The translations under genes were made by a program, and so were the position numbers. The notes below the pieces were generated by a model that saw nothing but the letters and a program-made list of their open reading frames with translations, was not told the DNA's origin and did no database searches. From assembly GCF_040954835.1 (NCBI RefSeq), contig NC_090704.1:39994979-40058978 (forward strand): DNA of 64,000 bases. The letters run 5' to 3'. Shown in pieces: positions 30,049 to 64,000 of this stretch; the first letter of the stretch is position 1, and every line of letters starts with the position of its first letter. Source of the stretch: Lepisosteus oculatus. Taxonomy: Eukaryota > Chordata > Actinopteri > Semionotiformes > Lepisosteidae.

Positions 30049-31092
30049 CTACACCATACTGATCATCTCCATTCCACTCAAGTCATGCAAGTCATAGCCA
30101 TCGGCATTGGTGTCAAAATGGAGACTTTGGGATCTTTTCTTGGGACACAGAAGTGTGTGAAAGTGTTTCCTGAATTTTTCAGAGAGACAGGCATACAGTA
30201 TGGGGTTAGCACAGCTCCAGGAGTAAGACAGAAGCACAACAAATTCAAAACCCTTTGCAAAGGCTGGTGTTAAATCTTCTGGATGCCGGAGGAAATAGAA
30301 ATTGAAAACATAGAAAGGCAACCAGCATATAGCAAAGACCAACACCACAGCAACAACCATCTTGGTTAGTTTTTTTTCTAGGCGCTGGGTCTCCCTATTC
30401 TGAAATCTACTGATGCCAGACTTTAAATTGACCAGCATTGAAGCATAACATGCTGTCATGACAATAAAAGGTAAAGCAAAGCCAAGAGTAAATGTGTAGA
30501 TAATGAAGGTTAACCACCACATGTCAAACGACCCCGGGGGATTTAAAGAACACGTACTGCCTATCACTGTGAAATGGACCGCCATGGGTAGAACAGGCAA
30601 CAGGGAGAAAAACCACAGAAAGACACTGATCATCTTGGCTCTCCTTGGGGTACACCATTTGGAGAACCTGATGGGATTGACCACTGCCATGTAGCGGTCA
30701 ATACTCATGAAGGTCAAGCAGAATACACTGGTAAACTGGTTGATCCCATCGAGAATCATAACTAGCTTGCATGCCAAGTCGCCAAACACCCAGCGTTGAT
30801 GGAAATTCTGCAGTGCTATAAAGGGCATCCCCACCATAAACAAGCCATCTGCCAAAGCCAGATTGAAGATGTAAACTGTGGTGGCTGATTCCATCTTGTC
30901 CAATTTCAATATGGTAATGATCACCAGGGAGTTCCCAGCAAGTCCCACGACGCAAACGCCCAGGTAGAGGACAGCCATCAGTGCGTCAAACAGGCAGGTC
31001 TGAGGGCCGCTGTCACCGTGGAGGGGATCGCTCGAAGAGTCGAAATGAAACGGGCTATTCTGATCAGTCACTGATGTGTACAAGGATTCCAT
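30049..31092 (-). CDS. Divergent somatostatin receptor family GPCR, tandem neighbour of SSTR2
   Basis: An intact intronless frame of 347 aa with seven membrane segments from about residue 36 to 302. By hand alignment from VGL in TM1 to the AKM after ICL2 it shares 63 of 106 residues with the SSTR2 next door. Retained: D82 (2.50), C108 and C181 (disulfide), D115 (3.32) and Q119 (3.36) in DGINQF, DRY 132-134, W160 (4.50), CWLPFYVFN (256-264), NPILY (296-300) and a palmitoyl-type C316. These mark it as a somatostatin-type peptide receptor, closer to the SSTR2/3/5 group than to SSTR1/4. Odd points: YSWSC replaces YANSC at 290-294, putting W292 at 7.45; ADG replaces ADE after D2.50; the N-terminus has no usable N-glycosylation sequon (NSP only); the tail differs wholly from SSTR2 but ends ISMV, a class I PDZ pattern. 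Start context is good. Orthology is not settled; SSTR3 or SSTR5 ancestry or an old SSTR2 tandem duplicate are all possible. Confidence 0.88.
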   Translation of the reverse strand: MESLYTSVTDQNSPFHFDSSSDPLHGDSGPQTCLFDALMAVLYLGVCVVGLAGNSLVIITILKLDKMESATTVYIFNLALADGLFMVGMPFIALQNFHQRWVFGDLACKLVMILDGINQFTSVFCLTFMSIDRYMAVVNPIRFSKWCTPRRAKMISVFLWFFSLLPVLPMAVHFTVIGSTCSLNPPGSFDMWWLTFIIYTFTLGFALPFIVMTACYASMLVNLKSGISRFQNRETQRLEKKLTKMVVAVVLVFAICWLPFYVFNFYFLRHPEDLTPAFAKGFEFVVLLSYSWSCANPILYACLSEKFRKHFHTLLCPKKRSQSLHFDTNADGYDLHDLSGMEMISMV

Positions 31093-40522: not shown

Positions 40523-41593
40523 GTGCCGTTTATTACATTCATCTTTATCGAGCGACCAGCTTCTGGGGAAACTGAAATACATTGGCAGCTTCTTATTTTG
40601 AAGCATTACTGCATGCCAACGCAAAGCCTCATGTGAGGGCTTGATTAAAGCAGTTTTACACACACTTGCAGTGAAAAGAAGAGGCTGGTTTTGTTGGAAA
40701 GATTCTTGCCAGTACTCCGAGCTGCCTGTTTATTCCCATTTGCTTTCTTTCAGGCCAGCTTGCTTGAGTGTTTTTGATGTAGGAGTTGTGCAGACTGCTT
40801 AATAGCATGCACAATACTGGATACTGGTGCTTTGCTTTAAGCTCCATGAAGGGCAAATGAATACAGTTCATGGTAAATTACTTTCATTACCCTTTCCATG
40901 TTGGGGTATACGCAGTAAATACCAGGCTTCTTTCATGGCTTTGTTTTTGTAGGTAGAAGACCTGTTGTACCTATTTGATCTTATAGAGCAGCTGTTTGCT
41001 TGCCTTCACGGACTCAAGATTTGCGTGTGTGCTCCTTTTTGTCATCTGCCTTGATTTGCCTTGACCGGTTTGCAGTTATGCCAAAGTGTGTTTACAGTAT
41101 ACAGAGTCCAGTAATACTAAACTGTGCCATTTTCTTGCAAAGCTTACCAAACACCTACTGTATAACAAGTTTGAAGTACCAGAAATGTATGTAAACATGC
41201 GGCTTAAGCAGCTGTACACAGAATTTGGATGAAAAAAACTCGATTACAAATTATAAAGAAAGAAGCTAATCTTTTTAATATTAGAATAGTATGAAGTATG
41301 AAGTATTTTCCTTTACCCTATAATCATTGCTATGGTAACTCTATGCATTGTAAGACAAACTTCATTGTTTTTTTTTACATTTGGAATATTTTGTTGTCTT
41401 CTATGAATTTGGCATTACTAATGTTTTGAACTATTTTCTTAAAATATATATGTTGTTCTTTATCCGTCTTTATAGGACTACTGTACAGTAGTGGTTCTAT
41501 AGGTAACTGGATTAGGAGGGAGTGCTTACCCTGGTCCCCTGGCTTAATTCAGCTTCAGGCTTGCACAGTCTTGTCTCCCTAAATCTCCACCTT

Positions 41594-42164
41594 AAATAAT
41601 AATAATAATTGCTTACACTTATATAGCGCTTTTCTGGACACTCCACTCAAAGCGCTTTACAGGTAATGGGGACTCCCCTCCACCACCACCAGTGTGCAGC
41701 CCCACCTGGATGATGCGACGGCAGCCATAGTGCGCCAGAATATCACCACACGTCAGGTATCAGTGGGGAGGAGAGCAGAGTAATGAAGCCAATTCATAGA
41801 TGGGGATTATTAGGAGGCCATGATTGGTAAGGGCCAATGGGGAATTTGGCCAGGAAGCCGGGGTTACACCCCTACTCTTTTCGAGAAACGCCCCGGGATT
41901 TTTAATGACCACAAGGACCTCGGTTTTACGTCTCATCCGAAGGACAGTGCCTGTTTACAGTATAGTGTCCCCGTCACTATACTGGGGCATTAGGACCCAC
42001 ATGGACCACAGGGTGAGCACCCCCTGCTGGTCCCACTAACACCTCTTCCAGCAGCAACCTTAGTTTTCCCCAGGAGGTCTCCCATCCAGGTACTGACCAG
42101 GCTCACACCTGCTTAGCTTCAGTGGGTTGCCAGTTGTGAGTTGCAGGGTGATATGGCTGCTGGC
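41594..42164 (-). mobile_element. 5S rRNA-derived SINE, apparently full length
   Basis: Read on the minus strand, it opens at 42164 with a 97-nt head homologous to 5S rRNA (42164-42068). GCCAGCAGCCATATCACCCT matches the 5S 5' end; GAAGCTAAGCAGG is the internal-promoter A box; CTGGATGGGAGACC is the C box. A unique body of about 400 bp follows, then a tail AAGCGCTATATAAGTGTAAG and an (ATT)n end near 41594-41610. A 5S-type Pol III promoter plus a simple-repeat tail defines SINE3-type elements. Three other fragments in this window (1217, 56790, 58828) share body or tail. No target-site duplication was resolved. Confidence 0.85.
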
Positions 42165-42915: not shown

Positions 42916-42954
42916 AAAAGAATCCTGGATGGGAGCCTGGGGTTTGCTGCGGGG
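42916..42954 (+). CDS. SLC39A11: SLC39A11 (ZIP11) second coding exon, 39-bp small exon
   Basis: Encodes KRILDGSLGFAAG, the conserved start of ZIP11 helix 2 (RRILDGSLGFAAG in mammals). The acceptor is a pure C/T tract ending CCCCCCCAG and the donor is GGG|GTAAGA. Both boundaries are phase 0, so it joins Q36 upstream with V50 downstream without a split codon. The longer open frame 42577-43023 around it is chance read-through. Confidence 0.93.
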
Positions 42955-43639
42955 GTAAGAGCGGCGTCCTTGAATATTTTATTCTCCTCTCTGGGTGAGA
43001 TCCTTCGCAAGCTTCGAAATTGAAATCCATCTTTTTTTACTAGGAAGGAAAGGATTCCCTGTTTATGCAGTATATAAAGAAGCCTGTAGTGGGACTGAAC
43101 CGGTATTTTGTTGTTGTGTATTGTTGTGTAAATGTATAAAACAAGATGCAGAGAGTTCATTTGGTTCAAAAGCTCACAGGCTATTGGTGCAATTTTCATT
43201 TGCGTTGGCAGTGTACATGCTATCTGATGTCTGCATTTGGTATGGACTGTTGATCTTGGATCGAATGCTGTGGTACTCCCTATAGGTGCACCTTTAAAAT
43301 GTTTTTCTTTTGGCCAGATCCATAATTTTATTCTTGCCAGTGTGTCAGACACTTGCTGCACTAGTTTGCATTGTGAGGAATGTGTGATGAGTCCGGAGAT
43401 CCCAGTCCTTTAAAAGTCTGTTTCGTACTCCTGCCCTTATTGTGTAATGGCTGGTGCTTTGCCGTTTGAGAATGTGGCCTTTTCACTTAAAAAGTTTAAT
43501 ACATTTGACTGAGGTACCCAGTGGCATTGGATGGTCTAACTAAAATTATTTTTATGGTCATGGGTATCTGAGAAGGCTTTGTACTGTATGTTTATTGGAC
43601 AAAATACTGGGAGTTCACATTCAGGTTTAAAAAAATCTG

Positions 43640-63633: not shown

Positions 63634-63792
63634 GTGATGCTGGCAGCATCCTATTGGTCGTTACTTGCCCCTGCAATTGACATGGCAGAGGACTCGGGGA
63701 AGTACGGAGCCTATGCATTTGTTCCTGTGGCTGTGGGTTTCACTCTGGGGGCCGCCTTTGTGTACTGTGCTGATCTTCTGATGCCAGCCTTG
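63634..63792 (+). CDS. SLC39A11: SLC39A11 (ZIP11) third coding exon
   Basis: Encodes 53 residues, VMLAASYWSLLAPAIDMAED, then GAYAFVPVAVGFTLGAAFVY and CADLLMPAL, the second half of helix 2 and the third helix of ZIP11, nearly identical to the mammalian protein. Acceptor ATTTTTTTTGCAG|GTG and donor GCCTTG|GTGAGT, both phase 0. With the two earlier exons this gives residues 1-102. The family is about 340 aa, so roughly 70% of the protein, including the metal-site helices, lies beyond the right edge. Confidence 0.95.
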
Positions 63793-64000
63793 GTGAGTCC
63801 AAGAAATCGTAAGCACCAATGACAGCACACTTATCATTAAAACCTCCACGTCACAACCTCATGTAATCCTGTGTTTCAGCAGCCATGATGGAATCCTGAG
63901 TGAGCTCACCCCACATGGCTGACAGGCTGCAGTCACATTACCATTGGCAACCTTTAATACTGCTAACATTTGTAAACAGGCAGTTTTAAATATACAAATG
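63793..64000 (+). other. SLC39A11: SLC39A11 downstream intron (partial)
   Basis: Starts with the donor GTGAGT; no further exon is visible before the window ends. Confidence 0.8.

Follow-up and report, generated by a model that had tools for sequence, protein, structure and literature searches.

What is the second somatostatin-type receptor gene between SSTR2 and SLC39A11 in the spotted gar, when did it arise, and does it still work? The analysis covered 64,000 nucleotides of Lepisosteus oculatus, called the window here, and the receptor is called X. The following features were located in the window.

30049..31092, minus strand: X, a receptor gene of the sstr2-like (SSTRX) type; one coding exon for 347 aa, coordinates including the stop codon
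11608..12732, minus strand: SSTR2; single coding exon, 374 aa
517..1116, minus strand: first coding exon of COG1; open stretch with ATG at 1044, matching Pfam PF08700
40406..40522 (approximate limits), plus strand: coding exon 1 of SLC39A11; open stretch, joined exons matching Pfam Zip below the cut-off
42916..42957 (approximate limits), plus strand: coding exon 2 of SLC39A11; open stretch, same joined-exon match below the cut-off
63637..63819 (approximate limits), plus strand: coding exon 3 of SLC39A11; open stretch, same joined-exon match below the cut-off

X was located upstream of SSTR2 in the direction of SSTR2 transcription, on the same strand and on the SLC39A11 side, with a gap of 17.3 kb. 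The plus-strand exons of SLC39A11 started at approximately 40.4 kb of the window. A Pfam scan of two of these exons singly gave no match, and the three exons joined gave a sub-threshold match to Zip with 29.0 bits (cut-off 35.1). The name SLC39A11 was presumed for them from the human protein. A sequence-only reading of the window had named the same two neighbors, COG1 and SLC39A11, and both were retained, COG1 by its PF08700 match and the plus-strand exons under the presumed name. Several other elements were observed. A full-length match to the 5S rRNA model (53.2 bits) was found at 42046-42164 on the minus strand within the SLC39A11 gene. It was probably a 5S-derived SINE, not a 5S gene, and we assumed the SINE3 type for it. 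Two dispersed repeat pairs were also present, one of 108 nt with 96% identity (1214-1321 and 41593-41700, 40 kb apart) and one of 74 nt with 85% identity (at 41743 and 56874).

The open reading frame of X ran from ATG to TAG over 347 codons with no internal stop, and the start context was AAAATGG. This frame and the distance to SSTR2 confirmed the sequence-only reading, which had described a complete class A GPCR of 347 aa on the strand of SSTR2. Its hand count of 63/106 identical residues from TM1 to ICL2 was slightly high, and five placements gave 59, 59, 61, 61, and 61 of 106. Over residues 36-320, 136 of 285 positions were identical between X and gar SSTR2 (48%), and the identity to SSTR2 of the host and of human was 47-48%. 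Gar and human SSTR2 were 80% identical over the trimmed core. Among solved structures searched by phmmer, human SSTR2 gave the highest score with X (298 bits, E = 7.9e-88), followed by SSTR5 (279 bits), SSTR3 (263 bits), and SSTR4 and SSTR1 (about 228 bits). Full-length SSTR chains scored 225-298 bits, whereas the best opioid receptor reached 201 bits, and X was nearer to the SSTRs than to opioid receptors or the rest of class A. The Pfam 7tm_1 profile was covered at 260/260 positions. Because of the phmmer scores and this full coverage, the likeness of X to the SSTRs is not due to chance. MCHR1 was also weighed, since it has D3.32 and Q3.36 as X does. It was rejected, as two MCHR1-like genes of the host matched X at 165 and 163 bits in the whole-genome search, compared with 282 bits for SSTR2. 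The names opioid, NPBWR, and MCHR1 for host genes are our assumption.

The sequence-only reading had implied that X was new. This did not hold, because the gene has been described before, under the name sstr2-like, from spotted gar and tilapia (PMC11224465, 2024), and SSTRX was reported for the coelacanth (PMC3560075, 2012). According to PMC11224465, no gene lies closer to sstr2 in spotted gar than sstr2-like, which is also kept in teleost paralogon A. The spotted gar block with sstr2-like in that paper also lists a gene printed as slc39a1, which was taken for slc39a11. X was similar to the published sstr2-like in being closest to sstr2, in lying in one block with slc39a11, in its single exon, and in its length, and the two were identified by position and description. 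The tilapia protein is described as 339 aa long with six transmembrane domains and as possibly heading to pseudogenization (PMC11224465). In contrast, X has seven helices by homology and keeps the motifs examined. A tilapia transcript called sstr2-like, linked to the gene by name only, was down in the intestine at 30 g/L salinity (PMC12428277). The "SSTR7" of topmouth culter was set aside, since in the text of PMC9576932 it is the name of a table row and is not shown to be the X gene. That X is an assembly artefact or a misplaced contig can practically be dismissed, and nothing was found in favor of it. Genome-wide, one full-length place with 100% identity was found, on the 47.8 Mb contig that holds the window, and sstr2-like was independently reported as the nearest gene to sstr2 in this species (PMC11224465).

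The motifs of X were then compared with those of the other receptors. The C3.25 and ECL2 cysteines, DRY, Y5.58, P6.50, and NPxxY were kept, and the tail ended in ISMV, which fits the class I PDZ pattern. In human SSTR2, eight deep residues hold the Trp-Lys pair of SST-14 (PMC9343605). The SSTR-family form of this pocket was defined as D3.32, Q/M3.36, F5.38, T5.42, F6.51, N/Q6.55, V/L7.39, and Y7.43. X was identical to the SSTR2/3/5 form at 8/8 positions (D3.32, Q3.36, F5.38, T5.42, F6.51, N6.55, V7.39, and Y7.43). Thus D3.32 and Q3.36, to which the sequence-only reading had pointed, were both present, and X had Q3.36 and N6.55, not M3.36 and Q6.55 of the SSTR1/4/6 type. The 8/8 pocket sites were no excess over expectation when compared with the 92/121 fixed sites kept (p about 0.10), and pocket conservation was not significant as proof of selection. 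At 6.54 and 7.35, X had the states of SSTR2 alone among the paralogues compared (F, F), where SSTR3 and SSTR5 have L or V, and Y.

The outer pocket of X was altered. The SSTR2-type I195 and W197 of ECL2 and Y205 (Y5.35) were absent (human SSTR2 numbering), and X had L, P, and W at these positions. TM7 read YSWSCANP, in which N7.45 was replaced by W. All ten SSTRs with which X was compared have this asparagine (YANSCANP or close). No N-glycosylation sequon was found in X, compared with six pattern matches in SSTR2. X was like SSTR2 in its class A fold, the Q3.36/N6.55-type pocket, F6.54, F7.35, DRY, NPxxY, and the PDZ-type tail. It was unlike SSTR2 in the low identity, the lost ECL2 Trp, W at 7.45, the absent sequons, and the tail, which is shorter and lacks the Thr-rich stretch found in SSTR2. 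We infer that X may bind somatostatin-type peptides at the conserved Trp-Lys anchor site and may signal via Gi to lower cAMP. The changes in ECL2 and the upper pocket, in ICL2 and ICL3, and at N7.45 would be expected to alter which peptides are preferred, the basal activity, and the coupling.

A receptor with such changes might be decaying toward a pseudogene, a possible fate proposed for sstr2-like in PMC11224465. The long branch of X in the tree, the N7.45W change, and the absence of sequons were in line with decay. Of the 89 sites invariant in the ten other SSTRs compared, 16 were broken in X, including N7.45, and several of the broken sites were located in ICL2 or at the cytoplasmic ends of TM5 and TM6. 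When each of the ten was compared with the other nine, the most divergent was human SSTR3 (8/97), and X exceeded all ten. At a cut of 1.4, a simple scan of hydropathy called six helices in X and missed TM7. However, TM7 hydropathy was borderline across the SSTRs, with 1.35 for X, 1.41 for gar SSTR2, and 1.03 to 1.72 for the ten other SSTRs. The six-helix count may therefore be an artefact of the predictor. Based on homology, the 7tm_1 match, and NPxxY, seven helices were the better reading for the X copy, to which the published remark on six transmembrane domains and possible pseudogenization does not fit.

Neutral decay was also simulated, starting from gar SSTR2 and continuing to 48% identity, with indels ignored and uniform mutation assumed. 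Stops appeared in 300/300 runs (mean 7.7, minimum 2), whereas the frame of X was intact. At positions where gar SSTR2, SSTR3, and SSTR5 agree, X differed from their consensus at 54/184 first (29%), 48/221 second (22%), and 60/111 third codon positions (54%). The differences were fewest at the second and most frequent at the third position, as expected under constraint. These results were consistent with the intact receptor under constraint that the sequence-only reading had proposed. The frame was unbroken, and the codon pattern was not relaxed. Together with the kept activation motifs among those examined and the full 7tm_1 match, they made decay an improbable explanation of X.

The position of X within the family was examined by maximum likelihood. 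From the 118 matches of the whole-genome search, six SSTRs, four opioid-type genes (exons), and one NPBWR-like gene were taken, and two MCHR1-like genes (L014 and L015) were excluded. The tree contained 16 sequences, namely gar and human SSTRs and outgroups, and 288 of 424 columns were kept after columns with less than 70% occupancy were dropped. X was placed beside gar and human SSTR2 with weak support (66%), on a branch of 1.29 to 1.33. The pair of gar and human SSTR2 was supported by 84 and 82% with outgroups and by 67% without. The branch of X may be long enough for attraction artefacts. X also kept only 4/22 SSTR2-only states and had 2/6 SSTR3/5-only states, which counted against an origin from SSTR2. 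The AU test was applied to the same trees with LG+G4 and C20, and the p values below are given in the order LG+G4 with and without outgroup, then C20 with and without outgroup. The placement beside SSTR2 gave 0.856, 0.703, 0.791, and 0.761. X within SSTR5 was rejected in all four tests (0.0195, 0.013, 0.024, and 0.012), and X within SSTR3 in the two with LG+G4 (0.032, 0.030, 0.132, and 0.081). The sequence-only reading had held that a firm place in either clade would count against it. SSTR5 was thus discarded throughout, and SSTR3 with LG+G4 and not with C20. X within SSTR1/4/6 was rejected only when outgroups were included (0.023, 0.083, 0.022, and 0.119), and Q3.36 and N6.55 also argued against it. 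Without outgroup, this placement had the same likelihood as a branch outside SSTR2/3/5. At the diagnostic sites, X was of the 2/3/5 type at 6/12 and of the 1/4/6 type at 0/12. These comparisons supported X as a probable SSTR2/3/5-type receptor, best placed next to SSTR2.

X might also have split off before SSTR2 arose, either as the sister group of SSTR2/3/5 or SSTR3+5 or as sister to the whole SSTR family. Such a lineage would date from before or during 2R and would lie beside SSTR2 by chance. The AU test did not reject a branch outside SSTR2/3/5 (0.252, 0.083, 0.251, and 0.119), a sister of SSTR3+5 (0.138, 0.083, 0.252, and 0.121), and, with outgroup, a branch outside all SSTRs (0.426 with LG+G4 and 0.461 with C20). 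X also had 2/6 SSTR3/5-only states, and in the abstract of PMC11224465 tilapia SSTR2-like branches at the root of the SSTR tree instead of next to SSTR2. However, compared with the placement beside SSTR2, the likelihood fell by 3.2 to 6.0 units with X outside SSTR2/3/5 and by 1.9 to 2.5 units with X outside all SSTRs. In addition, X had the SSTR2-type F6.54 and F7.35, its residues 263, 282, 301, and 309 were in states found in SSTR2 only, and it showed no 1/4/6-type state at the diagnostic sites. We therefore regarded the older lineage as unlikely.

The age of the duplication from SSTR2 was the next point. A grouping of X with gar SSTR2 only was not rejected either (0.336, 0.285, 0.46, and 0.534). 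Since this grouping and the branches outside SSTR2/3/5 and outside all SSTRs all remained, the tree alone cannot date the duplication. The individual substitutions gave further information. X had only 1/12 of the gar-specific SSTR2 changes and the human or ancestral state at 5/12. It had 0/16 of the human-specific changes and the gar or ancestral state at 2/16.

The coelacanth gene bears on the same point. SSTRX and SSTR2 are located at 3.47 and 3.45 Mb of one scaffold, about 20 kb apart, in the same orientation (PMC3560075). SSTRX is described as basal in SSTR2, fast-evolving, and on a long branch, and its authors read it as a coelacanth- or lineage-specific duplicate. The spotted gar was searched in that paper with human and coelacanth sequences, and its list for this species gives no SSTRX. 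X was similar to SSTRX in adjoining SSTR2, in orientation, and in its long branch, and the two were matched by position and description, although the authors take SSTRX for coelacanth-specific (PMC3560075). In the main texts of open-licence papers, no statement was found that equates SSTRX with sstr2-like. Since position and tree behavior were alike, one gene was the simplest reading, and SSTRX is most likely the same gene as X and sstr2-like.

A younger duplicate, specific to gar or to ray-finned fishes and fast-evolving, with SSTRX as an independent duplicate, would fit the AU values for X with gar SSTR2 only. It would also fit the published datings, which call SSTRX lineage-specific (PMC3560075) and place sstr2-like potentially in the ray-finned ancestor (PMC11224465). 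However, a single gar-specific change was common to X and gar SSTR2, and the matching place, orientation, and distance in the coelacanth would need two independent events. We considered the younger duplicate possible but clearly the weaker explanation. Of the two origins left by the sequence-only reading, an old and a fish-specific duplicate, the old one was the better reading, because of the 1/12 gar-specific changes and the published genes at the matching spot in coelacanth, gar, and teleosts. The tree alone left a gar-only duplicate unrejected.

The human block is not known to have a receptor at the place of X. Loss in mammals is most likely on this ground and on the SSTR table of PMC3560075, which has seven tetrapods and lists no such gene. 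Based on the above results, our reading, with a probability of roughly 0.6, is that X arose from SSTR2 by tandem duplication, evolves fast, and still works, and that it is identical with sstr2-like and most likely with SSTRX. The duplication would have taken place before the split of ray-finned and lobe-finned fishes, and the duplicate would have been lost later in mammals. It also appears rather probable that SSTRX and the gar and teleost sstr2-like genes are one gene, a seventh SSTR lineage of the bony-vertebrate ancestor that is functional in several fishes and was lost toward mammals. In gar, the receptor of this putative seventh lineage would have a changed outer pocket and, at the sodium site, the replacement W7.45.

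X was thus a real and intact receptor, most likely derived from SSTR2, and already reported. The useful part would be a correction of its age and of the suggested loss of function. Two papers dated the gene separately, as coelacanth-specific (PMC3560075) and to the ray-finned ancestor (PMC11224465), and both dates are too young if there is one gene. The published reports together suggested that it is as old as the bony fishes and was lost by mammals. Should all copies represent one gene, a receptor is missing from surveys of somatostatin physiology in fishes, and the ancestral bony-vertebrate set would be seven receptors, not six. With W7.45 in the otherwise intact X, the sodium site of a family of drug targets can be tested on a natural variant.

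The somatostatin system of the host genome was also surveyed. The best matches of the whole-genome search with X were X itself, SSTR2, SSTR3, SSTR5, SSTR1, and one SSTR4/6-type gene, and no teleost-type a/b pairs of SSTRs were seen among them. The host also had a rhodopsin in one open frame of 359 aa, and ray-finned rhodopsin is intronless. Together with the SSTR set, this fits a gar. Mitochondrial COX1 gave no match in the assembly. Six somatostatin-family peptide matches (L059-L064) were found on C13 (three, all inside 0.3 Mb), C28 (two), and C3 (one). Five were read, and all five ended in a peptide with the Phe/Tyr-Trp-Lys-Thr core. Host SSTR3 (L009, 4315-5964) had an open frame of 550 aa with a very long C-terminal tail in which runs of Glu, Asp, Gln, and Arg abound. 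The second SSTR1/4/6-type gene (L011, 3843-5177, minus strand) is probably SSTR6, a label from the published gar set. It scored 495 bits with human SSTR1 and 448 bits with SSTR4, yet it grouped weakly with human SSTR4 (78%). Its TM7 read YANSGANP, where the others compared, except X, have YANSCANP.
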